Source: Rhodospirillales bacterium 70-18
GTDB lineage: Bacteria > Pseudomonadota > Alphaproteobacteria > Acetobacterales > Acetobacteraceae
Assembly: GCA_001899585.1 (NCBI GenBank)
Contig: MKWE01000017.1
Span: 85,141 to 149,140 of the forward strand
Direction of reading: 5' to 3'
DNA length: 64,000 nt
Below, in pieces: positions 29,878 through 54,759 of the stretch (its first letter is position 1; each line of letters starts with the position of its first letter). A program made the translations under genes and the position numbers. The notes below the pieces were generated by a model. That model worked only from the letters and a program-made list of their open reading frames with translations. It made no database searches and had not been told where the DNA came from.

Positions 29878-30915
29878 CTATGCCGCGAACGCCATGAAGC
29901 GGGCCACGTCCCGCGGTGCGACCTGCAACCGGGCTTCCGTCCGAAGCGCGTCGAGGCCGAGGGTGCAGAGATCCTCGTTGAAGTCGCCCAGCTCGGGCGA
30001 GATCACGATCGCTTCGATCCCGGCCGCATTCGCCCGTTCGATCAGGCTGTCACGCGCCCCGTCACCGGCCGGATCGTTGTCGCGGACGATATAGAGCCGC
30101 CGCAGCGTGTCGGGGAACAGGATGGCGGCGAGATGAGCCGCAGAGAGCGCCGCCAGCATCGGCATGTCGGGCAAGACCTGCCGGAGCGATAGAACGGTCT
30201 CGATGCCTTCGCCGGCCGCCATCACCTCGCCACCGATGCCGAAGCGGACCGCGTTGCCAAGAAGATCGCCCATCGCTCGCCTCGGCGTGTCGATCGGCGC
30301 CTTGTCGCGACGGCGTGGATCGAGCCAGGTCCGATGTGCCCCGGTGATCTTGCCGTCGAGATCGGTCACGGCCGCGATCATCGCTGGCCATGTTTCGGTC
30401 GGCGAATGCTCGTCGGGGCGATAATAGCAGCGCGGGTGGTAATGCAGGCTTCTGGTTCCGCGTAAATCCGTAATGCCGCGTTCCCGGAGATACGCGTGTA
30501 CGAGCGTGCCGTGGATCGGTTGCGACATGCGGACCAGCCGTCGGGCCGCTTCGGGTGAGCCGTGTGGCGCCGGGGTCTGCCGGTGCTGCTCGCGAGGTTC
30601 GGGCTCCGGTGGCGGCATGCTGAGGAAGGTCCGGGCCTCGTCGGCGACGTCTTGGAAGTCGACCAAGCCGCAGCTCTCGCGGATGACGTCGAGGAGATCG
30701 CCATGCTCGCCGGTCGCCGCGTCGGTCCATTTGCCGGCGAGACCCTTGGGCGTGTCCTTGAGCCGGACATACATCGAGCGGCCCGGCGCGTTGCGCACAT
30801 CGCCCACCAGCCAGTAGCCGCCCTCGCGGCGACCGCTGGAGAGGTAGTGCCGGCACACCGCCTCGGCCTGCCGGCCGAGACGATGGGCGAGATCGGAAGC
30901 GTCCTGACGTGCCAT
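29878..30915 (-). CDS. Toprim-domain protein (DUF7146/primase-like)
   Basis: 345 residues from ATG 30915, which overlaps the upstream stop (TGATG). An N-terminal DUF7146-type segment (SGRREGGYWLVGDVRN, KGLAGKWTDAATGEHGDLLD) is followed by a C-terminal Toprim domain with AAGEGIETVLS (acidic motif) and YIVRDNDPAGDGAR (DxD motif). No zinc finger is visible. It is a primase/topoisomerase-like protein of the element, probably acting with the helicase-methylase it is coupled to. Confidence 0.87.
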   Translation of the reverse strand: MARQDASDLAHRLGRQAEAVCRHYLSSGRREGGYWLVGDVRNAPGRSMYVRLKDTPKGLAGKWTDAATGEHGDLLDVIRESCGLVDFQDVADEARTFLSMPPPEPEPREQHRQTPAPHGSPEAARRLVRMSQPIHGTLVHAYLRERGITDLRGTRSLHYHPRCYYRPDEHSPTETWPAMIAAVTDLDGKITGAHRTWLDPRRRDKAPIDTPRRAMGDLLGNAVRFGIGGEVMAAGEGIETVLSLRQVLPDMPMLAALSAAHLAAILFPDTLRRLYIVRDNDPAGDGARDSLIERANAAGIEAIVISPELGDFNEDLCTLGLDALRTEARLQVAPRDVARFMAFAA

Positions 30916-33900
30916 CACGCAGCCTCCCGCTCGGAGATGCGCACCACCGGGAAGGTGTCGAGCAACTTGGCGAGGACGCCGGGCCCAATCGCGTCGACCG
31001 GCACGAAGAAGCGGAGCTTCCACGAGATGATCTCGCTGAACAGGCCATAGGCCCGCAGACGATCCCGCATGGCCTCGGTGAAATTGGTCAGCTCCAGTCG
31101 GTGGGCGCTCATGACGCGCGCGCGGCGGAGCTGGAGCCCGTCGGCGAGATCGAGGATCGTCGTACCGTCCATTAAGGCGGCGAAAGCCTGCTCCGGGGTC
31201 AGCGACGCGGCGCCCGTCGTCACGGCGCTCGCCGCCCAGGCGGGCGAGACGCGGCGACCGATGATGCGCTCGCCGGCATCGGTCTGGAGCCGGTAGACTC
31301 GGGTCGACTCGTTCGGCAGACGCTTCCAGATCGGCAACAGTAGGCCGGCGACGATATGGATCGTGCTGTCGGAAAACTCCGGCACGTCGTTCAGCTCCGC
31401 CCACCATGCTGCCGCGAAGGCGCCGCGATCGGCTTGCTCCCAATGGCTCTCGTCCATCATGCGCAGCGGCGCATAGTGCTGCTCCATCGGCCGGATCAGG
31501 CAGACGCGGTGCTCGATGTCGCCATCGTCGAGCATCATCGACGGTGCGGGAACTTGGACGGCGGCGCGGCCAGAGCGGCCGTTGACCAAGAGCCGCGCCC
31601 GTGAATCGGAGAGATGGTCGAGCGCGTCGGCCAGGGTCGTCGGCCGATTGCGCTCCCGGCGCGTGATGGTGAGCAGCCGCGTCTCCGCGCCAGTGCCGGC
31701 ATGGGTGTGGATCACCTGGCTGCCGGTGACGACGAAGCTCTCGGCCTGCAGCGTCTCGAGCCCGATGTCATAGACGCCACTGCGGATCGCGCCCTCGACC
31801 TTGGCGGTCAGGAGCTGCTCGAACGCCGTGAAGAGCACGCCCTGCAGGTCGATGGTGAGCGCCAGCAGGCGATTGAGGAAGGTGGTGATCGGCGGCAGCT
31901 CGTCCTTGATGCCGTTGTCGTCCATCAGCTTGAGCCCGGTGGCGGACTCGAAGCGGTCGAGCGAGCAGGCCTCGACCTTGCCGCGGACGAGCAGCAGGTA
32001 GAGCTGGCGGAGCGCATCGCGGGCATATGGACTTTCCAGATTGTCCTCGGGTCGGAACAGGCCCTGACCGCCGGTCTGCCGCTGCCCGCGCGTGATGGCG
32101 CCGAGCGTGTCGAGCCGGCGCGCGATCGTCGAGAGAAAGCGCTTCTCGGCCTTCACGTCGCTGGTGATCGGCCGGAAGAGCGGCGGCTGCGCCTGATTGG
32201 TGCGGTTGGTGCGGCCGAGCCCCTGGATCGCGGCGTCGGCCTTCCAGCCCGGCTCCAAGAGATAGTGGATGCGCAGGCGCTGGTTCTTCGCCGCAAGGTC
32301 CGCGTGATAGCTGCGGCCAGTACCGCCGGCGTCCGAGAAGACGAGAACGCGCTTCTGGTCGTCCATGAAGGCGGCCGCCTCGGCGAGATTGGCCGACGCC
32401 GCCCGGTTCTCGACGGCAAGGCGCTCACCCTTGCGCACCACGCGCCGCGACCGGCCGGTGACCTCGGCGACGACGTCGGTGCCGAAGCGCTGGACGATCT
32501 GGTCGAGGGCGCCGGGAACGGGCTCAAGCGATGCGAGCCGCTCGATCAACTCGTCGCGGCGGGCGACGGCTTCCCGGCTCTCGACGGGCTGGCCGTCCCG
32601 GTAGACCGGCCGCGACGACAGATTGCCTTCGCTGTCGGAGAACGGCTCGTAGAGCTGCACCGGGAAGGAATGGGCAAGATAGTCGAGGACGTATTCGCGC
32701 GGCGTGATGTCGACGCGCACATCATGCCATTCTTCTGTCGGGATCTCGGCCAGGCGACGTTCCATCAGGGCTTCGCCGGTCGAGACGATCTGGATGACGG
32801 CCGTGTGCCCATCGGCCAGGGCCTGCTCGATCGAGCGGATCAGCGTCGGGGTCTTCATGCTGGTCAGCAGATGGCCGAAGAAGCGCTGCTTGGCGCTTTC
32901 GAAAGCCGAACGCGCGGCCGACTTTGCCTGCCGGTTGAGCGTGCCGGTGTCGCCGGTGATGTTGGCGGCCTGCATCGCCGCGTCGAGATGATTGTGGATG
33001 ATGGCGAAGGCGCCAGCATAGGCGTCGTAGATGCGGGTCTGCTCGGGCGTGAGCTGATGCTCGACCAGCTCGTATTCGACGCCGTCATAGGAGAGCGACC
33101 GGGCCGTGTAGAGGCCGAGCGAGCGCAGATCGCGGGCGAGCACCTCCATGGCCGCGACGCCGCCATTCTCCACCGCCTCGACGAATTCGGCGCGATTGGC
33201 AAAGGGAAAGTCGTCGCCACCCCAGAGACCGAGCCGTTGGGCATAGGCGAGATTGTGGACGGTGGTCGCGCCGGTCGCCGAGACATAGACGATGCGAGCG
33301 TTGGGGAGCGTGTGCTGGAGCCGGAGCCCCGCACGGCCCTGCTGCGAGGGGGCGACATCACCCCGTTCCCCCTTGCCGCCGCCGGCGTTCTGCATCGCGT
33401 GGGACTCGTCGAAAATGATCACTCCGTCGAAATCGGAGCCCAACCATTCGACGATCTGCTTGACGCGCGAAAGCTTCTCCCCGCGGTCGTCGGACCGTAG
33501 CGTAGCGTAGGTGGTGAATAGGACGCCTTCGTTGAGGCGGATGGCGGTCCCCTGCGGGAAGCGCGACAGCGGCGTGACCAGCAGGCGCTCCATGCCGAGG
33601 GCCGACCAATCGCGCTGGGCGTCTTCGAGCAGCTTGTCGGACTTGGAAATCCAGACGGCTTTGCGGCGGCCCTGGAGCCAGTTGTCGAGAATGACGCCAG
33701 CGGACTGACGGCCCTTGCCGGCGCCCGTGCCGTCGCCGAGCATGAAGCCCCGGCGGAAGCGGATGGCGTTCGGCGCATCGTTCGCCGCGGCGGTGACCAG
33801 GTCGCCGGTCTCGTCCACGGTCCACGCCCCGGCGAGATATTCGCCATGGGCCTCGCCGGCATAGATCACCGTCTCGAGCTGGGCGTCGGAGAGCACGCCG

Positions 33901-35237
33901 TCGGTGACTATCGCCGACGGAAGCGTTGGACGGTAGCTCGGCTTCGGCGGTGCAACCGACGCCATGGCGGCCGATTGCACCAGCTTGGTAGGATGCGGCT
34001 GAGCACCCGTGATACGGATCGACTGAAGCGCATAGGGCTCGTAGATCGAGTCCGACAGGCGGCCACCCTCGGGCGGCGTCCAGTCCACGGTCTCATAGTC
34101 GAGTGGCACGCCCTCGATCTGCGCGAACCGCCGGGCGGGCCCGGCGGACGCGGCCCGGGCGATATAGCCGCGCACGGTGCGCGGCGCGGCGTCAGCCGCG
34201 ACCTTCGGCAGCGTGACGGCCATCCGCGGCGTGACATCGCGCTCGATCCAGGCGAGCAGCGTTGCGACGTCCGGCGCGACACCGGCGGACTCAGGGAAGC
34301 GAGCCGCATCCTCGGCCGGCGCCTTGTCGATGACGGTCAGGCGCGTCTCGATGGTCGTACCGTGCTTGGCATACACCGAGCCGGCGATGGCCGACGTGAA
34401 CACGACGCGGCCGCGTTCCTGCAGCCGGATGAAGCTGTCCCGCCAGGCTGGCAGCTCGGGTGAGAAGTTCGCGCCGGTGATCGCCACCAGCCGGCCGCCT
34501 GGAGCGAGCCGTGCCAGCGCCGAGGCGATGTGGCGATAGGCTGCGTCGGCCATCCGTCCGGAGACGTTCGCCAGAACCGAGAACGGCGGGTTCATGATGA
34601 CGACGCTGGGGATGGCGCTGCGATCGAGATGATCGTCGATCTGGGCGGCGTCGAAGCGCGTGACCGAAAAGTCCGGAAAGAGAGATTCGAGCAGATCGGC
34701 GCGGGTCTCGGCCAACTCGTTGAGGATGAGTTCGGAACAGACAACCTCCGCGAGGACCGCGAGCAGGCCGGTGCCGGCCGAGGGCTCCAGGACGCGGTCG
34801 GCGGGCGTGAGCGATGCGGCGGTCAATGCCGCTAGGCCGAGCGGTGTCGGCGTCGAGAACTGCTGGAAGGCTTGGGCTTCCTCGGACCGGCGCGTGTGGG
34901 TCGGCAGCAGGCCGGCGATCTTGGCCAGCGCGGCCAGCCGTGCAGCCGGAGATACGGCTTTGCGGAAAAGCGGCTTTCCGTATTTGCGCAGGAACAGGAC
35001 GGTCGCCGCCTCGCAGGCGTCGTAGGCCGTTTTCCAGTCCCAGGCGCCGCTGGCGTCGGACGCGCCGAAGGCCTGTTCCATGGCTGCTCGCAGGATCGCG
35101 GCGTCGACGGGCAGGCCCTGTTCGAGATGAGGAAGGAGATGGCCGGCCGCAGCGAGAATGGCGGCGGCCGGAGGCGCGTCGGGCGCGAGCGGAAGCGAGG
35201 CCGCCGGAGCGGCTCCCGGGATCGGGGTGTGAAGCAT
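30915..35237 (-). CDS. strawberry-notch-like helicase with N-terminal methylase domain
   Basis: 1440 residues. Residues 120-280 form an adenine-methylase-like fold (ADRVLEPSAGTGLLAVLAEV; IMNPPFS near 213). A superfamily-2-type helicase follows: LGDGTGAGKGRQSAG near 497 as the P-loop, IIFDESHAMQN near 607, and a C-terminal helicase domain (VLVFSDAGGTGRSYHADLAA, AAIQGLGRTNRTNQ). This strawberry-notch plus methylase fusion is a common large protein of alphaproteobacterial ICEs and phages. An anti-restriction or DNA-protection role is often suspected but unproven. Long ORFs on the opposite strand are shadows. Confidence 0.9.
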   Translation of the reverse strand: MLHTPIPGAAPAASLPLAPDAPPAAAILAAAGHLLPHLEQGLPVDAAILRAAMEQAFGASDASGAWDWKTAYDACEAATVLFLRKYGKPLFRKAVSPAARLAALAKIAGLLPTHTRRSEEAQAFQQFSTPTPLGLAALTAASLTPADRVLEPSAGTGLLAVLAEVVCSELILNELAETRADLLESLFPDFSVTRFDAAQIDDHLDRSAIPSVVIMNPPFSVLANVSGRMADAAYRHIASALARLAPGGRLVAITGANFSPELPAWRDSFIRLQERGRVVFTSAIAGSVYAKHGTTIETRLTVIDKAPAEDAARFPESAGVAPDVATLLAWIERDVTPRMAVTLPKVAADAAPRTVRGYIARAASAGPARRFAQIEGVPLDYETVDWTPPEGGRLSDSIYEPYALQSIRITGAQPHPTKLVQSAAMASVAPPKPSYRPTLPSAIVTDGVLSDAQLETVIYAGEAHGEYLAGAWTVDETGDLVTAAANDAPNAIRFRRGFMLGDGTGAGKGRQSAGVILDNWLQGRRKAVWISKSDKLLEDAQRDWSALGMERLLVTPLSRFPQGTAIRLNEGVLFTTYATLRSDDRGEKLSRVKQIVEWLGSDFDGVIIFDESHAMQNAGGGKGERGDVAPSQQGRAGLRLQHTLPNARIVYVSATGATTVHNLAYAQRLGLWGGDDFPFANRAEFVEAVENGGVAAMEVLARDLRSLGLYTARSLSYDGVEYELVEHQLTPEQTRIYDAYAGAFAIIHNHLDAAMQAANITGDTGTLNRQAKSAARSAFESAKQRFFGHLLTSMKTPTLIRSIEQALADGHTAVIQIVSTGEALMERRLAEIPTEEWHDVRVDITPREYVLDYLAHSFPVQLYEPFSDSEGNLSSRPVYRDGQPVESREAVARRDELIERLASLEPVPGALDQIVQRFGTDVVAEVTGRSRRVVRKGERLAVENRAASANLAEAAAFMDDQKRVLVFSDAGGTGRSYHADLAAKNQRLRIHYLLEPGWKADAAIQGLGRTNRTNQAQPPLFRPITSDVKAEKRFLSTIARRLDTLGAITRGQRQTGGQGLFRPEDNLESPYARDALRQLYLLLVRGKVEACSLDRFESATGLKLMDDNGIKDELPPITTFLNRLLALTIDLQGVLFTAFEQLLTAKVEGAIRSGVYDIGLETLQAESFVVTGSQVIHTHAGTGAETRLLTITRRERNRPTTLADALDHLSDSRARLLVNGRSGRAAVQVPAPSMMLDDGDIEHRVCLIRPMEQHYAPLRMMDESHWEQADRGAFAAAWWAELNDVPEFSDSTIHIVAGLLLPIWKRLPNESTRVYRLQTDAGERIIGRRVSPAWAASAVTTGAASLTPEQAFAALMDGTTILDLADGLQLRRARVMSAHRLELTNFTEAMRDRLRAYGLFSEIISWKLRFFVPVDAIGPGVLAKLLDTFPVVRISEREAA

Positions 35238-35462
35238 GGAGGATACCTCGAAAGAGCGGAAGACGGACGAGCCTGGCCCGGCGCTCTCTCTCGACCGGAC
35301 GGGCTCAAACCCGTCCCGGCCGACCTCTCACTCTGGCGTGGTCGGCGCCCGTTCCATCGCTCCGACTTCCGGCGGCGGCGATGGGACGCTAATCTGGGTT
35401 GGGAAAAGAAGCCGCGGCGTCCCTCTTTCGGGCTCGCCGCGCCGGCGAGGAAGACAGACAGC
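35238..35462 (-). promoter_or_regulatory. leader of strawberry-notch gene with GACGGGT/GAGAGAG boxes (family A)
   Basis: The 225-bp divergent gap holds GGACGGG (35297-35303) and its exact complement CCCGTCC (35310-35316), plus CTCTCTCTCG at 35285 and CTCTCACTCT at 35325. On the minus strand this gives the order AGAGTGAGAG, GACGGGT, GAGAGAGAG, the same as upstream of the ParB and DUF932 genes. Promoters for both divergent genes must lie here. Confidence 0.5.
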
Positions 35463-37209: not shown

Positions 37210-39333
37210 TCACTCGGCCGCAACGAGGTGGCTTTCCTCGTCTTCGGCAGAGGCCTCCTCGTCGTCGCTCGCGAGGAAATCGGGCAGCGCGGCACCTTCG
37301 TCCTCGCCGCCGATCTGGTCTTCGGCCGCTGGCGCGTGGGGGTGGTCGACCAGCCGCAGCGGTTCGGGCAGCCAGCCGGTGTTGGCTAGCAGGCGTTCCG
37401 CCTCCTTCGCCATGTCACCCTTCTTCAGGTGGTCGATGAGCTGGGAGGCCTGTTCGCCGGCGCCTTCATGGACCGCCTGGAGGATACGGGGCTTGGTGAC
37501 GCGGCCGAGATAGTTGCCGACGGTCGGGCGCCAGCCGGCGTCCACCATGTCGAGCCCTGTGGCGCGGGCGAGCCGGTCGGCCTGGCCGAGCCGCATGTCG
37601 AGGCCGTGCTGCGAGACGCCATTGCCGCCATAGGGGTTCGGCTTCTCGTAGAGCGCGTTGACGCCGTAGCTCACGCAATGCGCCAGGAGCGCCATCCGGC
37701 TCGTGTCTTCGAGGGCCGCCAGCCAGTCCCACAGCGCGTCGTCCTCGGCGGGAATGTCGCCCGCCCAGCCCTCGTGGCGCTCATGCACCGCGCGGGCCGA
37801 TGGGCTGTCCTTCAACGCGTCGTCTTGCACCGGGAAGAAGACGTGGCTGACAGAAGCCTCCATGGCGCCCTTGTACATGCGGTGCTGGAAGGCGTCGGAG
37901 ACCAGCTTGTGCAGCAGCGCGGTCATCGCGACGTGCGGGTTGTCGGCCAGCGCATTGCGCAGCGCAAGGGTGCGATGGGCCGTCAGCTCGGTGACGAGGC
38001 GGTCCGGAAGCGGCTTGATCGCATCGTCCTCGTCGTCCTCCGGCTCGGCGGGCTGGCCGCCGATGGTGATGACGGCCCGCTGCACCACGGGCTCGGTCGG
38101 ATCGGCGTCGGCCCCCACGCCGGTCTCGCCCTCCGGAGCGATCGGCGCTTCGTCCTCGCCACGGACATAGCCGCGATCGATGTCGAGGCTGCCGTCATGG
38201 GCGATGCTGATGAACACGCCGGCGCGGGCGATGTCGTCCGCCTCGAAGCGTACCGGCCGGGTCTCGAAGGCGGCTAGCGCCGTCTCGATCTCGCCGAGCC
38301 GCTGATCGACCTCGTCCGGCAGCTCGTCAGCGCCTTCATATTCGGCCTCGAGCTTCTGGTATTCGGCGTTAAGCGCCTCGATGGTGGCCTGCTCGTCGGC
38401 CGTGAGGTCGAGCAGTTCGCCCTGCAGCTCGCGCAGGCCGCGCGTGGCGTCATAGGGGAAGCTGACCGCGACCTCGATCCACTTCCAGCCCTCGATCGCG
38501 ATTGTCTCGGCGGTGACCTTCAGCTTCTCGGCCACCAGGCGGTCGAGCAAGGCGGGATCCTGAAGCCAGCCGCCATCGTCGGACTGGAAGAGATCGCGCA
38601 TGGTGACGCCGCCGGCGGCCTCGTACGCCTCGATGCCGATAAAGACCGCGCGCTTGTCGGAGGCGCGCACCGTGGTCTCCGTGAGCATGCGCCGGATCTG
38701 ATAGGGCTCCTTCGACCATGCGTCCTTGATCGCCTCCCAGACCTGTTCCTGGCGGGTGTGGTCGTTAGACACCGTGAACGCCATGAGTTGCTCCAGCGTC
38801 ATGCCGTCCTCGGCATAGACGTCGAGCAGCGCCGACGATGCAGAGGCCAGGCGCAGCCGCTGCTTCACGACCTGGGCCGGCACGAAGAAGGCGGCAGCGA
38901 TCTCCTCCTCGCTCATGCCCTTGTCGCGCATGTTCTGGAAGGCGCGGAACTGGTCGAGGGGATGGAGCGGCGCACGCTCGATGTTCTCGGCGAGGGAGAC
39001 CTCTTCGGCGAGGATGCCGCTGTCGCGCTCGCGCACGACGCAGGGAACCGGCGCGACCTTGGCGAGGCGCTTCTGCTTGACCAGCAGCTCCAGCGCCCGG
39101 AAACGGCGGCCGCCGGCCGGCACCTCGAACATGCCGGTCTCAACGCCCTCGGCGTCGACGACGGGAAAGACGCTGAGGCTCTGGATCAGGCCGCGTCGGG
39201 CGATCGAGGCCGCCAGGTCCTCGATCGAGACGCCGGCCTTCACGCGCCGGACGTTGGACTGGCTGAGCACCAGCTTGTTGAAGGGGATGTCGCGCGAGGA
39301 CGACAGGGTGATCTTTTGAGCTGCAGTAGCCAT
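37210..39333 (-). CDS. large ParB/RepB/Spo0J-family protein
   Basis: 707 residues. The ParB N-terminal (nuclease/CTPase-like) domain covers about 15-130: LVLSQSNVRRVKAGVSIEDL, LIQSLSVFPV, FEVPAGGRRFRALELL and LAENIERAPLHPLDQF (the GERR-like and ENIQR-like motifs appear as GGRR and ENIER). A KorB-type HTH region follows (about 130-200). The remaining 500 residues are acidic and Ala-rich. It is far from parA and much larger than a partition ParB, so it is probably a regulator or DNA-processing protein of the element. SD: GGAG about 10 nt before the ATG. Confidence 0.88.
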   Translation of the reverse strand: MATAAQKITLSSSRDIPFNKLVLSQSNVRRVKAGVSIEDLAASIARRGLIQSLSVFPVVDAEGVETGMFEVPAGGRRFRALELLVKQKRLAKVAPVPCVVRERDSGILAEEVSLAENIERAPLHPLDQFRAFQNMRDKGMSEEEIAAAFFVPAQVVKQRLRLASASSALLDVYAEDGMTLEQLMAFTVSNDHTRQEQVWEAIKDAWSKEPYQIRRMLTETTVRASDKRAVFIGIEAYEAAGGVTMRDLFQSDDGGWLQDPALLDRLVAEKLKVTAETIAIEGWKWIEVAVSFPYDATRGLRELQGELLDLTADEQATIEALNAEYQKLEAEYEGADELPDEVDQRLGEIETALAAFETRPVRFEADDIARAGVFISIAHDGSLDIDRGYVRGEDEAPIAPEGETGVGADADPTEPVVQRAVITIGGQPAEPEDDEDDAIKPLPDRLVTELTAHRTLALRNALADNPHVAMTALLHKLVSDAFQHRMYKGAMEASVSHVFFPVQDDALKDSPSARAVHERHEGWAGDIPAEDDALWDWLAALEDTSRMALLAHCVSYGVNALYEKPNPYGGNGVSQHGLDMRLGQADRLARATGLDMVDAGWRPTVGNYLGRVTKPRILQAVHEGAGEQASQLIDHLKKGDMAKEAERLLANTGWLPEPLRLVDHPHAPAAEDQIGGEDEGAALPDFLASDDEEASAEDEESHLVAAE

Positions 39334-39509
39334 CGGGATTTACTCCGCGACGGGCGGCCGAGAGACTCTCTCTCAACCTCCAACCCGTCACGAAGCAAAG
39401 CGCCACCCTCTTCCTCTAAAGGGGGGCAGCGCCATCGGCCGGTGAACCGAAGAGACACGGAAGCGCAAAGCCGGAGACACGAAAAACCGTATCCCCGGCG
39501 TCACGGAGA
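39334..39509 (-). promoter_or_regulatory. leader of ParB-like gene, family-A structured element
   Basis: CGCGACGGG (39346-39354) pairs with CCCGTCACG (39384-39392) with one mismatch. Between them GAGAGA/TCTCTC (39360-39374) forms an inner hairpin. CACCCTCTTCCTCT and a run of G follow at 39404-39426. In the minus-strand transcript the 3' outer arm abuts the GGAG Shine-Dalgarno of the ParB-like gene. The same layout precedes the DUF932 gene. Confidence 0.65.
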
Positions 39510-40703
39510 TCAAACCGCTCGATCGAGCAGCTTCTTGGCCTTGGCCTCCATGTCGAGGCGGGCGTCCTGATGCGGCTTGTCGCGCGCGACGGCGGTGATG
39601 CCCTGAACAAAGTCGAAGATGCTTTCCGGCGGCCGTCCTTCCTCGGCCAGCACCGTGTCGATGATTCTGCCGGTCTCGGCCTTGGAGAAGCCGCGGCGGC
39701 GCAGGAAGTCTGTGCGATCCTCGTCGCTGCGCGCCACGATCCGCTCGCGCGCCGCCCTGATGCCGTTGACGAAGGGCAACGGCGATGAGTTCGCGAAGTT
39801 CAACAGCGCCGGGGCAGCCTCATGGGCGAACCGATTGGCGGCGTATTTGGAGTGGCGGATGGTGATTTCCTCGAAATCCTCCACGCCCCACAAATTGCGG
39901 TTCTGGCAGACCGCGCGGAGATAGAAGCTCGCCATGCCGAGCGTCTTGGCGCCGACTTCGGAATTCCAGCAATAGAAGCCGCGGAAATAGAGATCTGGCG
40001 AGCCGTCCGGCAGCCGGCCGGCCTCGATCGGGTTCAGGTCATCGACGAGGAAGAGGAAGACGTCGCGGTCGGAGGCGTAGAGGGTCGTGGTGTCCTTGGT
40101 GATGTCGACGCGCGGATTATAGATGCCCGTCGACCAGTCGAGCACGCCGGGCACTTTCCAACGTGTATCGCCCGCACCGTTGCCGGCAATGCGCTGCACG
40201 GCCTCGACCAGTTCGTGATCGTAGATGCGCCCATAATCGGGCCCGGTGACAGCGCGCAGCTCGACTCGGCCGCCATCGGTTTCGAGCGTCTTGATCTGCT
40301 CGGCCCGGTTCGAGGTCAGGCCGTACTGCAGGTTGATGCCGGCGAGCGCGGCCGGAAGCTGGCGCAAATAGGCGGCTGGTGCTCCGACCAGGCTGGCGAG
40401 TTGGCCGAAGGACCAGTGCGTCGGCGCAATTGGCGTATCGGTCCCGGGAAGGATCAACGCCAGTCGCTCCGCGTCGCTTCGGTTCGCCTCCACGTGGATG
40501 AGGGCGCTCTCCACCACGCGGGTCCGGCTACGGTCGGCACGGTCGCGCACCGCTCGCGCCAGTTCGGAGAGCGAGAGGTAGCGCTCGTCGGCCGGACGCG
40601 AGAACCACTCCGACGAGACGCGGCCGACCCGCTCGCCGCGGCTAACATCCACCTTGTAGCCGCCGCTCGTATCACGGCGCGCATCGAGAACTTGCATGTT
40701 CAT
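39510..40703 (-). CDS. DUF932 protein
   Basis: 397 residues from ATG 40703 (GGAG 9 nt upstream); an ATG at 40718 lies inside the leader hairpin and has no ribosome binding site. The DUF932 pattern is clear: SRPADERYLSLSELARAVRD, PTHWSFGQLASLVGAPAAYL, RAVTGPDYGRIYDHELVEAV, then FLFLVDD and FRGFYCWNSEVGAKTLGM. It is related to phage and plasmid DUF932 (YfjQ-like) proteins of unknown activity. It marks the end of the recognisable backbone here. Confidence 0.9.
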   Translation of the reverse strand: MNMQVLDARRDTSGGYKVDVSRGERVGRVSSEWFSRPADERYLSLSELARAVRDRADRSRTRVVESALIHVEANRSDAERLALILPGTDTPIAPTHWSFGQLASLVGAPAAYLRQLPAALAGINLQYGLTSNRAEQIKTLETDGGRVELRAVTGPDYGRIYDHELVEAVQRIAGNGAGDTRWKVPGVLDWSTGIYNPRVDITKDTTTLYASDRDVFLFLVDDLNPIEAGRLPDGSPDLYFRGFYCWNSEVGAKTLGMASFYLRAVCQNRNLWGVEDFEEITIRHSKYAANRFAHEAAPALLNFANSSPLPFVNGIRAARERIVARSDEDRTDFLRRRGFSKAETGRIIDTVLAEEGRPPESIFDFVQGITAVARDKPHQDARLDMEAKAKKLLDRAV

Positions 40704-40942
40704 GGGACCAATCTCCATGACGGGCGCGGGAGCCTCTCTCCCAGCTATTCACCCGTCACGGAAACCGATCCGCACTCTCACTCTCAGGGGGCGTTGCGGG
40801 GTCTCCCCGCAGAAGGGGTCGGTCGGGACCTTGGGCTCGGCCGCAGGGGAAGGCTTTCCCCCTCGCGTCCATCCTTTGCGGACGAAGGTTTGTATCGAGG
40901 GCCGGAGAACCGTAGATCAGGCTTTCAGTAGCATCGTCTTGG
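40704..40942 (-). promoter_or_regulatory. leader of DUF932 gene, family-A structured element
   Basis: TGACGGG (40718-40724) pairs exactly with CCCGTCA (40752-40758), with an inner GGGAG/CTCCC hairpin (40728-40742), then CACTCTCACTCTCAGGGGG. In the transcript the 3' arm runs directly into the GGAG ribosome binding site. A separate perfect 7-bp hairpin lies at 40795-40811. The rest of the gap is downstream sequence of the Mrr-like gene. Confidence 0.65.
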
Positions 40943-41899
40943 TCAGGAGACCTTTTCCCGCAGCCATGATGACAGGCCGGCGTCGAGCACCATGCGAGAA
41001 AGCTTTTGTGGACCAAGAAGTATGACGCCCGCCGGACTGCTTTCCTCTGCGATGTCGCCGGTGTGCCAGACGAAGAACATCCGGTCATAGGCATCGGCCT
41101 CCGCCAGGCGGGCTACATAGTCGTTCAGGGCTGCGGATGTGGCCTGCGATTTGACTTGAACGAAAGCGCGCTCGGCCGTGCTGGGCAAGATGAGCTCCAG
41201 GTCCACGGTCTTCTGCGTGCGCCCGACCTGGCTCACCCGGCGCCAACCGCTGGTCGAGAAAACGAGATCGACGAGGAGCTCGAAGTCCTGCCAGGTGAGA
41301 AGGCGCATCAGCTCCACGATCGCCGTCATCAGCGCACGTTCGGCCTCTTCGGCTGCGGCGACCTCGGGGGAGAGCTGATCGCTGAGCTTTCGTAGGAGAT
41401 AGTCTCCCGCCCGAACATCGCAGATTGTCCCCCGGAACATCTGCACCTTCAGCAGACGTCCCGATAGTCGGTCGGCCGAGAGCAGGGTGCCGTTGACGCT
41501 TGTGTTGCGCCATCCTTCTGCGGTTTGACGACGGTGACTGCGATCATCGAGCAATTCGACAGGGCCGGTAGGTCGGCACCAATACAGGAGTCCGCCGACG
41601 AATGTGATGAAGATCGAATGCTTGTCGGCCTCGTAATAGGCCCGGATCTGATTGACGTCGCGGGTTGCGGCGCCGGCATCACCGCGGATGGTTTTCATTG
41701 CCTCCCAGACACCTTGCCAGTCGCCGCGAGCACACAGGTCGTGCGGCGCCTCTCGATAGCCGAAGCGGAGAACCCCCTCGCGCAGACTTTCAGCTTCCCA
41801 ATCGCCGCCTCGACCAAGTTTTATATAGTAGAGATGTGAAGCGGCGATGGGAGCAGGCTGATCTCCGATCATTGGGGAAGGCGAACGGACTAAGGTCAT
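40943..41899 (-). CDS. restriction-endonuclease-like (Mrr-type) protein
   Basis: 318 residues from ATG 41899; GTG 41914 and ATG 41872 are alternatives. The N-terminal part (LYYIKLGRGGDWEAESLREG) is seen next to nucleases. The C-terminal part has a PD-(D/E)XK core: LTWQDFELLVDLVFSTSGWR, then VDLELILPSTAERAFVQVKS, with Asp and QxK in the expected places. It is only a few bases downstream of the type III Res gene, so it is probably a third gene of that operon. Confidence 0.78.
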   Translation of the reverse strand: MTLVRSPSPMIGDQPAPIAASHLYYIKLGRGGDWEAESLREGVLRFGYREAPHDLCARGDWQGVWEAMKTIRGDAGAATRDVNQIRAYYEADKHSIFITFVGGLLYWCRPTGPVELLDDRSHRRQTAEGWRNTSVNGTLLSADRLSGRLLKVQMFRGTICDVRAGDYLLRKLSDQLSPEVAAAEEAERALMTAIVELMRLLTWQDFELLVDLVFSTSGWRRVSQVGRTQKTVDLELILPSTAERAFVQVKSQATSAALNDYVARLAEADAYDRMFFVWHTGDIAEESSPAGVILLGPQKLSRMVLDAGLSSWLREKVS

Positions 41900-41918
41900 C
41901 TTGCTGCGGCGCACCCTC

Positions 41919-44276
41919 TCATTTGGTTTCCAAGGCCTTTTTAACAGCTGATGCTACATCTGCATGGGTCGTACAGCGGATCTGACCTGTTGTTGTCATT
42001 CGCCATACAGAAAAGCCGGAACTGCTTGTCTGCTTCATGGTCTCTGCCGACCAGGTCCCGTCAGTAATAAACCGGACCAAAATGCGCTGCTGACCCTTCT
42101 CGTCCCGGATCGCCAACAGCTTGCGGCCAGCTTCCGTTTGAAGGAGAAAGCCACCTTTAGGATCGATCGCTATGATTTTCTTGTCCTTCCAGACAAGGAA
42201 ATCAGGAAAGAAGCGCCGGCTCTCGCCTTTGTCTAAGAGAGGAATTGAGTATCCCCCATTCACTGGGTTGCGGACCCAGGTGAGTCCCGTACCGTCGATC
42301 TCGTGGGCTACTGCAAGCTCGGGCGTGTTGAGATCGCTATAGCTCTCATGGACCGAGTTAGTGAATTTATGAGTGGCATCTGGACGAACATATACTGCGC
42401 CGACGGTGTAGGGATTTGAATCCTCGAACGCCAACTCCGCATGAGATAGATATGTATCAACGAGCCGTTCGGCATCTTCGCGCAACTGTTGGGCAGCAAC
42501 ACTCGTAATCTCCACGCGTGCCTCAAATTTTGGGTCGGCCCAATCAATCGTCTTGACGGCCTCGGGATATCGAGACTGCATGTGTCGTCGAACGAGCCAG
42601 CGCGCTATAACGCGGTTGGAGTGATCTTTGACATGCGTCTCGATTGACGGTTTGGAGCCGTCACCGATTTGTTGAATCGCGCGTGTTAGCTCGCCTGCAC
42701 CCTGAACATTCACGGAATCTGTAGTGTAGTCGTGGATGGAGGAGATAGCTTTAGTAAGTGGATCGACGGATTCGTCAGCGTCGATGTGGATTTCTGGGAT
42801 AGTTAGGTTTTGCTTTGGCTCAATACGCGACCGCCGCCGGTCACGCGCATCGCTGAAGCCTTCCAGCTTCACGTCGGGCATTTCTGAAGCGATCTTGCGG
42901 CGAACCACCTCAAGTATTTTCGGAAATTCCTGCTTACTGTCGATGCGAATGTAGAAATTCGCCGTATTCAACAATGGGTCCGGGTAGTGACGGGCTCCAG
43001 GCTGACGCAAAACACGACCGATGACCTGTTCGACTTGAAGAGCCGATCCCATAGACTTATCGATATAGGCAAAACAGCAGGCCGGATCGTCCCAACCCTC
43101 CTGAAGGCTTTGGTTGAAGATGATATGCCGGTAGGTTCCCTGCGAGAATACGGCGAAGTCGTCCTCTCCGCCTGAGAAGAGGGTGAACCCTTCCGGAGCA
43201 GGATAGTCCTTTTGATTCATTTTCAGATCGCAATAGAGCGCGATCTCGTCTGCAGGGATGCCTTTTTCTTCGGTCAGGTACCGCCAGATTAGGATAGGAG
43301 GCGCTTTGCGTTGGTTGAACGGCCGATGAGGGTTATCGGCAGTTCCATCATCCTGGCTGATATTCGTGCGGCAAACGTAGATCGCCTTCGGAAGGAAGCC
43401 GGCTTCGAGCTCGTCCGCTTTGAGCGTGGCGAGCTGGAAGTCTTCGATCATGTCATTGAGAGTGGTTTCCATCTCGGTGTCGTAGCCGCCGAGGACGATT
43501 TGTCGTTTCACCAAGCCAGCGTCGACGGGCTCCTTTGATCTGATGGCGGTGATCAAGCAGCGCGACGGACTATCTTCGGGATCAGAGATTGCCTCCGCGT
43601 TCCAACCTACTTGCTTAAGCCGATCGATAATCTGTCCTAGCTTGCCCGGCGTGCGCATCGTCGCAGACGCTGCCAGGATAATGTCCGGTTCAAGTTCGAG
43701 GAGCAGATCCGTCTGCTGATCGGATAAATTGTGTGCTTCATCATAGACGATGATCAGCGGGCGCCGCTCCGCTGCGCTAGGCGCTTTCCTCTCAGCGAGG
43801 ATTTCCCAAAGCGCTCCGTCGTTCTCGTCCTCGTCCTTCTGGTGGACTTTGAGTTTGCCGTCGCCTTTCGATTTCTGATTGAAGCTACCTACCGTAGCCA
43901 GCAGGATGCACGCCTGCGTGTCGTCTTGGATTTGATCCACCTTGGCTTCACTTAGGTAGCCGGTGGTAAGCTGGGGGATCAGATGCTCGTATTTCCCACC
44001 CGCCTCAAAGTTCGCGAACGTCTGATCGACAACGGCTTTGGATTTGGAAATCCACAGCACGATCGGTTCGAGCTGCATGCCCGCGCGCAGCAACGAAACT
44101 GTATCGGCGAGGATGGCCGTCTTACCGGATCCGGTCAGCGACGCGAGCGCTTGATAGAATGGCGTCGGCCACCCCATGTACTCGATAGGCCGCTTCTTGT
44201 CGGAGACCAGGAGCCCATAGCGGGCCACAATTTGCTGGGAGGCTTTTGTTTGAAAGGGAAGTAGCTCGATGCTCAC
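41919..44276 (-). CDS. res: type III restriction enzyme, Res subunit
   Basis: 785 residues from a GTG that overlaps the mod stop (GTGA). SF2 helicase motifs: TGSGKT near residue 47 and IVYDEAHNLSD near 177. Further motifs are GRVLRQPGARHYPDP (motif VI) and a C-terminal nuclease region FFPDFLVWKDKKIIAIDPKG. With the adjacent Mod it translocates or diffuses on DNA and cuts unmethylated sites. Codon use is visibly richer in A/T than the trb genes, a sign of separate acquisition. Confidence 0.93.
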   Translation of the reverse strand: MSIELLPFQTKASQQIVARYGLLVSDKKRPIEYMGWPTPFYQALASLTGSGKTAILADTVSLLRAGMQLEPIVLWISKSKAVVDQTFANFEAGGKYEHLIPQLTTGYLSEAKVDQIQDDTQACILLATVGSFNQKSKGDGKLKVHQKDEDENDGALWEILAERKAPSAAERRPLIIVYDEAHNLSDQQTDLLLELEPDIILAASATMRTPGKLGQIIDRLKQVGWNAEAISDPEDSPSRCLITAIRSKEPVDAGLVKRQIVLGGYDTEMETTLNDMIEDFQLATLKADELEAGFLPKAIYVCRTNISQDDGTADNPHRPFNQRKAPPILIWRYLTEEKGIPADEIALYCDLKMNQKDYPAPEGFTLFSGGEDDFAVFSQGTYRHIIFNQSLQEGWDDPACCFAYIDKSMGSALQVEQVIGRVLRQPGARHYPDPLLNTANFYIRIDSKQEFPKILEVVRRKIASEMPDVKLEGFSDARDRRRSRIEPKQNLTIPEIHIDADESVDPLTKAISSIHDYTTDSVNVQGAGELTRAIQQIGDGSKPSIETHVKDHSNRVIARWLVRRHMQSRYPEAVKTIDWADPKFEARVEITSVAAQQLREDAERLVDTYLSHAELAFEDSNPYTVGAVYVRPDATHKFTNSVHESYSDLNTPELAVAHEIDGTGLTWVRNPVNGGYSIPLLDKGESRRFFPDFLVWKDKKIIAIDPKGGFLLQTEAGRKLLAIRDEKGQQRILVRFITDGTWSAETMKQTSSSGFSVWRMTTTGQIRCTTHADVASAVKKALETK

Positions 44277-46255
44277 GCGGCGGTCTCCTCGCCGGCATCT
44301 GACGTCGATCCGACTCCATAGGGGTGTAGCGCTTCGTTAAACCCCAGCGCATCGAGGATGCGATTCGGAATCTGGTAAAATTCGACGTTGGGGCCGCTGT
44401 ACGTCGATATCCGCGCATAGACGTGAAACGGTTGTGCCAGCCCCTCAGCCTTCGCTTCCGCGGCGATGGCTCGGAACGACGCGCGATTGAGCACCGAAGC
44501 CTGATCCGGACCGTTCCAAATTAGAAAGAAACCTTCGCCCCGTGCGCTTTTGGCAAACAGATACGAGTGCGTTCCTGCGGGCAAGCGTCTCAGATGTGCA
44601 GCGGCCCTATCCTTCTGATCCCAGTAGGAGGTAAGCAGCAGGTCCACCATTTCTTCTCGCTCAAGCGCCAAAACCGCCGCAGCGTCGACCTGCGACATTA
44701 GTTTCGAGAACCGGAAGCCGCTCGAAAGCGGCGCTGCAGAAATCGCGGAGACACCCTTCTTGTTGACACGCTCTCCCGTTACGGCGCGCTTCAGACGTTC
44801 ATAGGTGAGAGTTCGGGCGTAGGCATCGCCGCGCTCTGGCCGACCTTGCTCGATAAGTAAGAAGCGCCGATCAGCTCCCGATTCAGCATTCAGTTCCATG
44901 ATCGCATGCGCGGTTGTGCCCGACCCTGCGAATGGATCGAGCACGATACCGGTGGGTGGGCACCAAATTTGAATGATCTTTTTGATCAGCTTCATAGGTT
45001 TGACAGTTTCAAACCCGTGACCCGGACCGACGATCGAAGTAAGCTCGTTAATGCCAATCTGACTATGGCCGGAATGCTCGTGATCCCAGGAGGTCGTGCC
45101 GATGTCTAACGGCTCCTCGTAGTCATCGTCAGACCAGTATGTCGTCGGAACAATCCCTTGTTTGACGTCCTTCAAATACTTCTTCATGCCGAACGTGCCC
45201 TGACCGTCGTCACGCCAATGCGCAGCAGGCCAGACGCCGGACCTTATCTTTTCAGCAGCTTTACGGGCGGCTTTCAGCGCTTTGTGCTCGGTCGAAAACG
45301 ACTTTTCGGTCGGAATCGGAGCACCGGTAATGAGCAAAGCCTTCTGGCGACCATCGCCTATATCGCGCTCGACATACTTCGATCCCCATGTCTCCAAGTA
45401 TGCCTTCATTCGCCGCTTTTCCGAGCCCCAGTGGCGACCCGCGGTGGGATAGTGGAGCTGGCCAGTGAATGGCGATTGAATGGCGTAGATCATGGACAGA
45501 TGAGTCTCCTCACCACGCGCGGTTAAATCGCCCGGCTTCCATGGATGGGGATCTCCGTCACGCGAGAGGTAGCGTTTGTCCATCTCCTCAGTGCGCGGGA
45601 GGAGTGCAGTCTTCGCTCGTTCTGCGTTCTTTGCGTAAACGAGAACATATTCCGTTGCTGTAGAGAGTTGGCGCTGATCGTTGCGCGGCGCATATGACTT
45701 TTGCCAATTGATTATTCCGATACGATTGGCCTCTCCGAACATCTCGTCGAGCAGCATGCCCAACCGGAAGAGCTCTCGATGATCGATACAGATTGCCAAG
45801 ACCCCGCCAGGTCGAAGCATCTCTTTCATCATCCAAAGGCGTGGTGTCATGAACCGGAGCCACTTGGAATGCCTTGACCCGTCATCAGCCGGAACCAATT
45901 TTCCTAGGTCAGGATCGTTCGGATCCTCGTCCCAGCGATCGTTGTACCGAAAGTCCAAGCCGGTATTGTAAGGAGGATCGGTCAGGACAAGGTCAACTTG
46001 GCCGCGGTACTTATACAGACTGACCAGCGCTTGAAGATTCTCGCCTTCGAGAAGAATATTTTCTGACTGCTGTATTTCGGAGCCAACGCAAAGCTTCTTT
46101 TCGATCCGCTGGGACCGAGGCTTCAATTGTCGAATAATCTGCCATGGAGGGGTCTGACCCGGGTATGTCAGCCGGATGCCGCCAATGTCCACGCCGTCGC
46201 GCTCAAGCAGCACTCGGATGAGGTCTTCGCGGCTCAGTTTGTTGTATTCAGTCAT
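44273..46255 (-). CDS. mod: type III DNA methyltransferase, Mod subunit
   Basis: 660 residues from ATG 46255 (GAGGG upstream); the ATG at 46270 has none. The catalytic motif DPPYNTGLDF is near residue 92 and the SAM-binding DPFAGSGTT near 440. This order (catalytic motif first) is that of beta-class N6-adenine or N4-cytosine methylases, as in type III systems. It supplies sequence recognition for Res. The target cannot be read from the sequence. Confidence 0.94.
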   Translation of the reverse strand: MTEYNKLSREDLIRVLLERDGVDIGGIRLTYPGQTPPWQIIRQLKPRSQRIEKKLCVGSEIQQSENILLEGENLQALVSLYKYRGQVDLVLTDPPYNTGLDFRYNDRWDEDPNDPDLGKLVPADDGSRHSKWLRFMTPRLWMMKEMLRPGGVLAICIDHRELFRLGMLLDEMFGEANRIGIINWQKSYAPRNDQRQLSTATEYVLVYAKNAERAKTALLPRTEEMDKRYLSRDGDPHPWKPGDLTARGEETHLSMIYAIQSPFTGQLHYPTAGRHWGSEKRRMKAYLETWGSKYVERDIGDGRQKALLITGAPIPTEKSFSTEHKALKAARKAAEKIRSGVWPAAHWRDDGQGTFGMKKYLKDVKQGIVPTTYWSDDDYEEPLDIGTTSWDHEHSGHSQIGINELTSIVGPGHGFETVKPMKLIKKIIQIWCPPTGIVLDPFAGSGTTAHAIMELNAESGADRRFLLIEQGRPERGDAYARTLTYERLKRAVTGERVNKKGVSAISAAPLSSGFRFSKLMSQVDAAAVLALEREEMVDLLLTSYWDQKDRAAAHLRRLPAGTHSYLFAKSARGEGFFLIWNGPDQASVLNRASFRAIAAEAKAEGLAQPFHVYARISTYSGPNVEFYQIPNRILDALGFNEALHPYGVGSTSDAGEETAA

Positions 46256-46411
46256 TTTTTCCCTCAACAAGGCCGGACCGCGCCTGCTCTTGAATTATTG
46301 TGAACCTCATGTCGCGTCTGCCGATCGGCTCGTCGCACCTGGATAAATCGCGACCGCCCGCAATAGAACATAACATGAACAAAGATTGTTGGCTATTCTC
46401 CCGCGCACAGA

Positions 46412-48058: not shown

Positions 48059-48694
48059 TTGGACTTCGAGGATCTCGTCACGGTGCTGGAGCCGCCACCG
48101 AACCGCGTGGGCAAGGCCACGGAGGGCCATGAGCATCACTTGTACGAAGGCGCGGTCATGGTCGCCTATGCGATGCACTTGCTTCGCGCGGAGGGGGCCC
48201 GGGACGTTCGTATCCATCCCGATGGCGAGCACGGAAAGCAGTTCGACTTTTCAGGCTGGCTGGAACTGCGGGATTTCATCAAGGCGTCGAGCCTCGGCAC
48301 GACGGCCTATGGCGGTGTTTATCGCAACACCCTGGGGCAGACGGTCACGGTCCATCCGAAGTCCGGCCTTGGCGATGTTGTGGCGCAGGTAGGCGACCTG
48401 ATCCTGTCGGCTGAGTGCAAGGGCGGCATCATCAATACGCGCCACTCGGGCCAAGTCTCCCGACTCTACAAGGGACTGTGCGAGACCGTGGGAATGCTGA
48501 TGGCGACGCCGTCGCCGGGCCGGCAGGTGGCGGTCGTGCCGCTGACGGATGGCACCCGTCGGCTGGCCGAGCGGCTCGCGCCGCGCTGTGCTTTGGCCGG
48601 GATTGAGATCGCCCTCGTGGGCAGCCGCGGGCAGGTCCTGGACATCAATCCCGGCGGCGACGACGAGCCCGCTGCCGGAAGGAGCGACGGATGA
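48059..48694 (+). CDS. PD-(D/E)XK-like nuclease-fold protein, partner of TIR protein
   Basis: 211 residues from TTG 48059, preceded by GGGAGG at ideal spacing; no ATG fits better. The segment GDVVAQVGDLILSAECKGG contains Asp113, Glu119 and Lys121 in D-x5-E-x-K order, a PD-(D/E)XK active-site pattern. QVSRLYKGLCETVGML then forms the following helix. It overlaps the TIR gene by four bases (ATGA), so the two are translated together. The nuclease call is from pattern only. Confidence 0.7.
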   Translation: MDFEDLVTVLEPPPNRVGKATEGHEHHLYEGAVMVAYAMHLLRAEGARDVRIHPDGEHGKQFDFSGWLELRDFIKASSLGTTAYGGVYRNTLGQTVTVHPKSGLGDVVAQVGDLILSAECKGGIINTRHSGQVSRLYKGLCETVGMLMATPSPGRQVAVVPLTDGTRRLAERLAPRCALAGIEIALVGSRGQVLDINPGGDDEPAAGRSDG

Positions 48695-49803
48695 GAAGGC
48701 TACTTACGGTCGGGCTTACCTATACGGGCGATGCAATCGATGGTGTCGAGATTGACAATCTCGGCCTGTGTCGGCCCGAAGTGGAGCGCGAGCGGGCCGC
48801 GTTCCCGCTTTATGAATACGACACGATCATCATCAACCCGGAGAGCTATTCCCATTTCCTGTTCGGCCAGGGCGGGGAGTTTTCGAACGAGCTGTATGAA
48901 CTGGGAAAGCTGAAGGGGCAAAACGACCGATACGACCTCGATTCCGCTTTCGATGCGGAGGATCGGCGGAAGGAAATGGAGGCGGCAATTGCGGACGGCG
49001 CGACCGTGGTCTGGTGCCTGTCCGAACCAAAGCGCGTGAATTTTTTCGGCTACCGCGAGACGCACTTGGGGTTTGCAGCGCCGAAAGTCGCGAGCTTCGT
49101 CAAGCGCTCGGAGCTGCTTGTGAAGAAGGGGCGCAGAATGGGCCTGGTCGATCCGGACAGCCCGTTCGCACGCTATTTCGATGTGCTGTCACAGACCGGC
49201 GGCTGGACGCTCTGCTTGTCGGATCCCGGCGAAGGCTATGCCTCCATCGCCGCGACGCCGGAAGGCTACAGCCTGGGCGGCCAAGTGACGCTCGGGACGA
49301 CGACCGGCTGGCTGCTGACACCGCCGACATCGCAGGAAGCGCAAAACCAGCTCGTCCGTGACAGCCTAGCGCTGAAGAAGGCGGACCCCGGGCACGAGAA
49401 GTACCACGGCATATTCCTGAGCCACACCGGCGTCGACAAACCGTTCGTGCGGCAGTTGCGCAAGGATCTCCTCGCCCATGGCGTGCCGCGCGTCTGGCTG
49501 GACGAGGCGGAGATCGAGATCGGCGACTCGCTAATCGCTAAGATCGACGAGGGCATGAAGCTCAGTCGATATATCGCTGTCGTGCTGTCGAAGAAGTCGA
49601 TCGACGCCCCTTGGGTGAAGAAGGAGCTCGACGTGGCGATGAATCGGGAGATCTCCACCGGCGAAGTGGTCGTGCTGCCACTGCTCTACGAAGAATGCGA
49701 ACTGCCGGGATTCCTGAAGGGCAAGCTCTACGCCGACTTCTCGAAGCCTGAAGACTATGAAACCGTGCTGGGTAAGCTCTTGCGGCGGCTTCGAATCGCC
49801 TGA
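48691..49803 (+). CDS. TIR-domain protein with novel N-terminal domain
   Basis: 370 residues. The C-terminal TIR domain spans about 238-368: YHGIFLSHTGVDKPFVRQL, RVWLDEAEIEIGDSLIAKID, YIAVVLSKKSIDAPWVKKEL. The candidate NADase glutamate is Glu312 in WVKKE. The first 230 residues (YDTIIINPESYSHFLFGQGG, VVWCLSEPKRVNFFGYRE, a Gly/Thr-rich GGQVTLGTTTGW strand) form a domain that I do not recognise and that probably senses the trigger. TIR effectors in bacteria kill infected cells by NAD+ depletion or signal production. Confidence 0.85.
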   Translation: MRRLLTVGLTYTGDAIDGVEIDNLGLCRPEVERERAAFPLYEYDTIIINPESYSHFLFGQGGEFSNELYELGKLKGQNDRYDLDSAFDAEDRRKEMEAAIADGATVVWCLSEPKRVNFFGYRETHLGFAAPKVASFVKRSELLVKKGRRMGLVDPDSPFARYFDVLSQTGGWTLCLSDPGEGYASIAATPEGYSLGGQVTLGTTTGWLLTPPTSQEAQNQLVRDSLALKKADPGHEKYHGIFLSHTGVDKPFVRQLRKDLLAHGVPRVWLDEAEIEIGDSLIAKIDEGMKLSRYIAVVLSKKSIDAPWVKKELDVAMNREISTGEVVVLPLLYEECELPGFLKGKLYADFSKPEDYETVLGKLLRRLRIA

Positions 49804-51126: not shown

Positions 51127-51156
51127 CTGTCAGAAAACTGTGTATATTTCTGACAG
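51127..51156. promoter_or_regulatory. inverted-repeat operator of AbiEi
   Basis: CTGTCAGAAA (51127-51136) and its exact reverse complement (51147-51156) flank 10 bp that include TATAT. The repeat ends at the abiEi Shine-Dalgarno. AbiEi antitoxins are known to repress their own promoter by binding inverted repeats, so this is the expected operator. Confidence 0.72.
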
Positions 51157-51166
51157 GAGATTGGCC

Positions 51167-51760
51167 ATGCAACGCCTGACTGAACAGATTCTTGAACATG
51201 CGAAGCGGCTGCCGGAGGGCACGCCGGTTGCGGCTAAGAGCTTGCTTCACCTCGGTAATCGCGCTGCGGTCGATCAGGCTTTGTCGCGTCTAGCGGAGCG
51301 GGGCCAATTGATGAGGGCCGGTCGCGGCGTTTACCTGCTGCCGGTTACCAGCCGGTTCGGCACGAGGGCCCCTTCGGTCGAACTGGCGGTTGAGGCGCTG
51401 GCGGCCCAGCGCGGTGAGGTTATCGTTCCGAGCGGTGCTGCCGCCGCAAATACCCTTGGTCTCACGACCCAGGTGCCAGTTCGGTCGGTGTATCTGACGT
51501 CTGGGCGCACCCGGAAAATGAACCTCGGCAAGCAGGTGGTTGAACTGCGCCATGCACCGCGCTGGCAGCTCGCCATGGCCCAGCGACCCGCTGGGGAAGC
51601 GGTCCGAGCGCTGGCTTGGCTTGGACCCGAAAAAGCCGAGGCCGCTCTGACTACTCTGAAGCGGAAGCTATCGCCGACTGCCTTCAGCGAGCTGGTCGCG
51701 GCGGCGCCACAGCTGCCGACCTGGCTCGCGCGCAGCGTGGGGAAGGCTGCGCATGGCTGA
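51167..51760 (+). CDS. abiEi: AbiEi-type antitoxin/transcriptional repressor
   Basis: 197 residues from ATG 51167, with AGGAG upstream. The N-terminal winged HTH (RLTEQILEHAKRLPEGTPVA, RAAVDQALSRLAERGQLMRA, GRGVYLLP) is followed by the DUF6088/AbiEi C-terminal domain (LAAQRGEVIVPSGAAAANTL, VYLTSGRTRKMNLG). It neutralises AbiEii and autoregulates. It overlaps the toxin gene by 8 bp. Confidence 0.9.
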   Translation: MQRLTEQILEHAKRLPEGTPVAAKSLLHLGNRAAVDQALSRLAERGQLMRAGRGVYLLPVTSRFGTRAPSVELAVEALAAQRGEVIVPSGAAAANTLGLTTQVPVRSVYLTSGRTRKMNLGKQVVELRHAPRWQLAMAQRPAGEAVRALAWLGPEKAEAALTTLKRKLSPTAFSELVAAAPQLPTWLARSVGKAAHG

Positions 51761-54755: not shown

Positions 54756-54759
54756 CACC

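Follow-up and report, generated by a model that had tools for sequence, protein, structure and literature searches.

The element and its leader-bearing genes

The DNA analysed here, a stretch of 64,000 nucleotides called the window below, contains an integrative/conjugative element that encodes Trb-type secretion proteins, a coupling protein, a DUF3363 relaxase, a signal peptidase and RepA. Its transfer and RepA genes are followed by a helicase gene, a parB-like gene and a DUF932-like gene, and then by defence cargo. The product of the parB-like gene is a homologue of the ParB-like protein found next to ardA/psiB/psiA on IncF plasmids, where its relatives sit, on one such plasmid, between ArdA and PsiB/PsiA. 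The third gene had been called DUF932 in a preliminary description made from sequence alone; Pfam DUF932 gives no match to the window protein at 0.001 and only a weak one, below cut-off, to one relative (0.003), so "DUF932-like" is the safer label. The start served by its Shine-Dalgarno sequence (SD) is ATG 40703 (MNMQVLD, as in relatives), and the in-frame ATG 40718 falls inside the leader hairpin.

The cargo includes a gene for GajA (OLD-family ATPase/TOPRIM) followed by one for GajB (UvrD helicase), which together represent a Gabija defence system (52794-56751, plus strand). An AbiEi/AbiEii pair (51140-52769, plus strand), a TIR-domain protein gene (48691-49803, plus strand) and a type III-like methylase/helicase with an Mrr-type endonuclease (40943-46270, minus strand) form a defence island that adjoins the establishment genes. 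A predicted tRNA-Cys (43631-43710, plus strand) lies antisense to the helicase/ResIII gene; the Rfam tRNA model is silent there, and the prediction is probably spurious.

Table 1. Positions in the window of the leaders and the genes that they precede
Feature	Position	Strand	Details	Basis
Type II leader of strawberry-notch-type helicase gene	35235..35338	-	box AGAGTGAGAG 35334-35325, GGGACGGG, GAGAGAGAG loop, CGCTCT	
Helicase leader SD	35246..35249	-	GAGG 35249-35246; ATG 35237	
Strawberry-notch-type helicase gene	30915..35237	-	1440 aa	AAA_34 and Helicase_C_4
parB leader, AGAG box	39408..39417	-	AGAGGAAGAG	sequence
parB leader, outer stem 5' arm	39384..39392	-	CGTGACGGG	sequence, covariation
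parB leader, inner hairpin	39355..39377 (approximate limits)	-	GAGAGAG loop	sequence, covariation
parB leader, 3' arm into SD	39343..39354	-	CCCGTCGC; CCCGTC 39354-39349, GGAG 39346-39343	sequence, folding
ParB-like gene	37210..39333	-	707 aa; ATG 39333	ParB_N match; plasmid relatives
DUF932-like leader, AGAG box	40775..40784	-	AGAGTGAGAG	sequence
DUF932-like leader, outer stem 5' arm	40752..40760	-	CGTGACGGG	sequence
DUF932-like leader, inner hairpin	40728..40742	-	GGGAG-AGAGG-CTCCC	sequence
DUF932-like leader, 3' arm into SD	40713..40724	-	CCCGTCAT; CCCGTC 40724-40719, GGAG 40716-40713	sequence
DUF932-like gene	39510..40703	-	ATG 40703; reading frame open from ATG 40718 as well	

Architecture of the leaders in the window

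The parB-like gene and the DUF932-like gene that precedes it each carry, on the minus strand, a leader of the same build, which reads 5' to 3' as a AGAGNNAGAG box, about 15 nt, (Y)CGTGACGGGT (the CGTGACGGG arm), an inner hairpin, GCCCGTC, RY, GGAG, 9 nt and ATG. The inner hairpins of the two leaders have different stems and a loop of AGAGG/T or similar. The preliminary description had reported one architecture before two unrelated genes (39334-40790), which held, and had run the CCCGTC arm directly into GGAG, which is corrected here; two nucleotides (GC or AT) intervene, and they also pair. The family is larger than the two leaders it described, and a third, related leader (type II, below) is present in the window before the helicase gene. 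We note that in leaders of the parB build (type I) the two bases before GGAG are GC (119) or AT (57) and seldom AC (7), though AC pairs best with the invariant 5' GU.

The hairpin-SD-ATG arrangement is found at just these two sites in the whole window. They match the covariance model described below with E = 2e-23 and 1e-19 (both are among the members from which it was built), and its next-best match, 0.006 at 35286-35350, lies within the related helicase leader; the window leaders are real and not a chance arrangement.

Other hairpins lie nearby on the same strand. One, GCCGGGGATACGG-TTTTT-CGTGTCTCCGGC at about 39460-39500, is located between the DUF932-like stop codon and the parB leader, and similar ones occupy this place in relatives. 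An extra multi-hairpin block (GGGGAAAGCCTTCCCC ... TGCGGGGAGACCCCGCAACGCCCC, 40800-40870) lies immediately 5' of the DUF932-like AGAG box; similar blocks precede many of the leaders of ArdC and DUF932-like genes and are absent from the ParB leaders inspected.

Covariation, strand bias and the conserved box

In an alignment of 76 leaders 94.8% of the cells pair, double changes occur in 18 of the 21 pairs, and both sides have changed in 131 cells, against 36.6 in shuffles. The covariation score is 0.375, compared with 0.218 +/- 0.007 for shuffled alignments and no more than 0.134 for slid partners. The result holds in a second set, of 144 distinct leaders. The covariance model was used to fit both alignments, which therefore lean towards its structure; a MAFFT alignment that predates the model has 37 double-changed cells vs 10.7 in shuffles. 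Covariation is present in both stems and across gene families and orders, and in divergent members the outer stem itself is altered and still pairs, for example AUGACAGG/CCUGUC and GUGACGAG/CUCG. Compensatory changes across homologues thus exceed chance, the criterion for a conserved cis-regulatory RNA. The earlier claim that the inner stems differ and yet keep pairing, as a conserved RNA would, therefore held in both sets under a check in which lack of covariation would have refuted it.

One-sided changes are strongly biased by strand. On the sense strand the ratio of G-U to A-C is 322:29 without the SD-side pairs and 463:34 with them (151:20 and 223:23 in the first set). A G-U excess of this size, about 11:1, means that selection acts on the transcript or, with lower probability, on DNA of the same strand; it points away from duplex or template-strand DNA.

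The unpaired parts are conserved as well. Of 232 leaders, 193 have the box AGAGNNAGAG without a mismatch, where shuffles predict 0.32; the spacer from box to stem is 14–16 nt long in 176 of 177, and the loop is mostly AGAGG, AGAGT or GGAGG. In ParB leaders conservation jumps at the box, some 85 nt ahead of the start codon, to 1.38 bits per base from no more than 0.16 upstream.

Predicted burial of the Shine-Dalgarno sequence

When type I leaders are folded from the box to codon 11, the SD has a probability of 0.10 (median 0.015) of being unpaired; shuffling the leader raises this to 0.42. By this model the leaders are predicted to meet the criterion for an SD-sequestering leader, namely an SD within a conserved, covarying stem. 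Masking of the ribosome binding site, put forward earlier as the simplest function, is thus supported by folding for type I leaders, and the effect on translation of breaking the pairing is inferred. The pairing may run on past the SD, since the box-to-stem spacer and the segment from SD to ATG pair at -7.63 kcal/mol vs -7.18 +/- 0.13 kcal/mol with partners swapped within gene families, and none of 300 such swaps matched the observed energy; the evidence is modest, and sequence relatedness may contribute to it. An alternative switch hairpin, RYGG/CCRY just before the start codon (GCGG/CCGC or AUGG/CCAU), was considered as a switch and is only noted; it shows a small excess (36 vs 28.6 +/- 2.3 by strict pairing, shuffled within gene families), which is not significant when G-U is allowed.

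Distribution and downstream genes

The host genome has six copies of the leader. A pattern search of 200 genomes of the host's order found the leader in 62, a few of the matches being chance ones inside genes. A covariance model, R1, was built from 32 leaders (the window pair among the family members used) and at E <= 0.01 has matches in 30 of the 385 genomes examined from the class; three of the weakest are doubtful and were excluded from later counts. Phylum-wide, 34 of 399 genomes have matches, all of them Alphaproteobacteria (the number of genomes sampled from other classes is not stated). Leader-bearing genomes carry one to seven copies. On Gamma- and Betaproteobacteria plasmids no convincing match to the model was found beside ParB homologues.

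Eighty ParB-like loci (1.3 Mb in total) were picked by protein alone from named genomes of the Hyphomicrobiales, Sphingomonadales, Rhodobacterales, Caulobacterales and Rhodospirillales/Acetobacteraceae. The leader lies immediately before ParB in all 80. The 173 leader matches in these loci are without exception on the coding strand, and the distance from SD to start codon is 7–9 nt in 172 of them. The genes behind them encode ParB-like proteins (80), ArdC (46; identified by ArdcN plus zincin domains), DUF932-like proteins (24), an unknown protein of about 185 amino acids (17) and RadC (5), with one unassigned. A search of the loci for the box, a GA-rich loop and SD-ATG gave 220 places, all but one of which precede ParB-like, helicase, ArdC, DUF932-like, ~185-amino-acid family or anti-restriction ArdB/KlcA genes. 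The RadC-domain genes (PF04002, one tested; loci L113, L114, L123, L124 and L136) have a weaker leader (27–44 bits), just upstream of parB.

ArdC guards incoming DNA (PMC7213743, PMC5512222), and anti-defence genes of plasmid leading regions require early, brief expression (PMC11541004, PMC8708921); the leader's gene set fits this leading-region or establishment, anti-restriction theme (PMC11541004, PMC8708921). The family of about 185 amino acids (for example L009:8337-8891, minus strand; L112:11573-12118; L101:10523-11077) has no Pfam match and may be a candidate establishment or anti-defence gene.

Type II leaders

The leaders of 57 helicase genes align and share the box, GCCGGGACGGG, a longer inner stem with a GAGAGAGAG loop, CGCUCUC and GAGG, and the same type of leader also precedes ArdB/KlcA genes. 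RNAalifold predicts pairing between the box and a CUC close to the SD, and finds double changes in 5 of 15 pairs; the box/CUC(U) pairing in type II leaders is invariant and gives no evidence from covariation. The SD of helicase leaders is not buried (unpaired probability 0.40 vs 0.30 shuffled), and the earlier masking claim does not extend to them. Because these leaders keep the box and loop without burying the SD, masking cannot be the whole story; type II leaders are made of the same parts as type I and need another mode of action.

Proposed mechanism and alternatives

Our best reading is that the leader, about 85 nt long, belongs to a new family of cis-acting mRNA leaders that limit translation of establishment and anti-restriction genes in alphaproteobacterial conjugative elements. 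We favour it by a modest margin (probability about 0.62), and the translational control is inferred. The leader structure, the transcript-strand bias, the fixed SD position, the gene set and the distribution are shown, computationally; a link between the leader and transfer, and the nature of the trigger, are possible but speculative. In the proposed default fold the outer stem would join the 3' arm CCCGUC-RY-GG(AG) to (YY)CGUGACGGG, and with the SD buried, translation of the ParB-like, ArdC, DUF932-like, RadC and related genes would be held at a low level. A trans factor (protein or RNA) or the ribosome would probably act at the purine box AGAGNNAGAG and at the loop AGAGG/U, setting or releasing the closed state. 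Since all bear one leader, the unrelated genes would be regulated jointly, plausibly with a burst of synthesis as the element enters a new cell. It remains conceivable that so stable a stem merely tunes translation down and is not a switch. A bolder version, less likely than not, has the two leader architectures coordinating translation of about seven unrelated invasion genes as a post-transcriptional establishment regulon, through a factor that reads the AGAG of box and loop and allows a burst in the naive cell.

One possible sub-case of the main reading is an RNA-binding repressor encoded by the element, which would bind the AGAG box and loop and close the leader in the donor, so that a recipient without repressor would give a burst of translation after transfer (zygotic induction). 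It is favoured by the single leader on many establishment genes and by the recurrence of AGAG in the box, the loop and both leader types, and the RHH repressor of plasmid p576 follows the same logic at the level of transcription (PMC8708921). Against it, no candidate regulator has been identified, and the ParB-like protein is not obviously required, as three leader-bearing genomes (drafts or remnants) have no ParB-like match at 1e-20. These genomes are only weak evidence against that protein as an obligatory regulator, since two of the three appear to be remnants. It is also possible that the leader is an unregulated, constitutive element that stabilises the mRNA or fixes translation at a low level, the purine box then serving as a ribosome standby site; the strong burial of the SD, the purine-rich unpaired segments, which suit a standby site, and the exposed SD of helicase leaders agree with this, but the box, loop and 14–16 nt spacing are conserved beyond the needs of a simple brake.

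Two explanations at the DNA level are very unlikely. A Frpo-type promoter, in which a hairpin in the transferred strand recruits RNA polymerase before second-strand synthesis, is suggested by the anti-restriction and ParB-like genes of F-type leading regions, which are served by single-stranded DNA promoters (PMC11541004). If the folded strand were the template, however, A-C would be seen on the sense strand instead of the observed G-U:A-C ratio of 322:29; the leader moreover lies 7–9 nt before the start codon with the SD in its stem, and no resemblance to -35/-10 elements is visible in the alignments (by eye, without a formal scan). An operator or promoter in double-stranded DNA, with the inverted repeat as a protein binding site, would suit the conserved AGAG box and the absence, in ParB leaders, of any conserved promoter farther upstream, but one-sided G-U changes, the commonest variation, would break a DNA palindrome, and the leader holds a fixed place at the SD, always on the same strand relative to the gene.

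The rapid, brief expression of anti-defence genes in a new host has been explained by single-stranded DNA promoters (PMC11541004) and by a transcriptional repressor (PMC8708921). A leader that marks establishment genes offers a direct handle on anti-defence switching in Alphaproteobacteria and can serve as a tag in the search for unidentified genes of establishment or anti-defence, the ~185-amino-acid family being one example.

Comparison with known systems

At gathering score Rfam 15 (STAXI included) has no match in the window, in the leader loci of its own genome (a tRNA aside) or in the divergent leaders, and no description of the leader was found in the open-access literature searched, which does not cover the 2017 survey of 224 RNAs. 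The leader is thus likely a new RNA family, a conclusion that rests on Rfam 15 and open-access text. The radC RNA motif lies upstream of radC genes. It is, like the leader, a proteobacterial structured RNA (RF01754; PMC2864571), and some leader members also precede RadC-domain genes; identity of the two was rejected, as the RF01754 model (149 positions, gathering score 40 bits) gives no match at E up to 10 to the window leaders and two RadC-gene leaders. It has no match in 20 genomes either, a result of little weight since the control genomes gave none too. The STAXI motif (PMC2864571) is likewise a structured motif near DNA-handling and anti-restriction genes, but is a tandem pseudoknot, whereas the leader has nested stems.

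Ribosomal-protein leaders, RNA thermometers and translational riboswitches resemble the leader in its likely burial of the SD in a stem; they differ in that this leader is common to five or more unrelated families of mobile-element genes and has no known ligand or regulator. The Frpo/ssi single-stranded DNA promoters of plasmid leading regions (PMC11541004) are also hairpins repeated before anti-restriction and establishment genes of conjugative elements, but pairing in the leader is selected on the mRNA-sense strand, its hairpin holds the SD, and -10/-35 elements are not visible by eye. A single conserved, structured region, EGeRS1, likewise precedes several establishment operons, that of ardC among them, in the pLS20 plasmid family (PMC8708921); its mechanism is still open. 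It is 400–600 bp long and belongs to Bacillus plasmids, and the leader is much shorter, as its conservation before ParB genes starts about 85 nt from the start codon; the leader, in contrast, is alphaproteobacterial and has a defined fold that is predicted to bury the SD.
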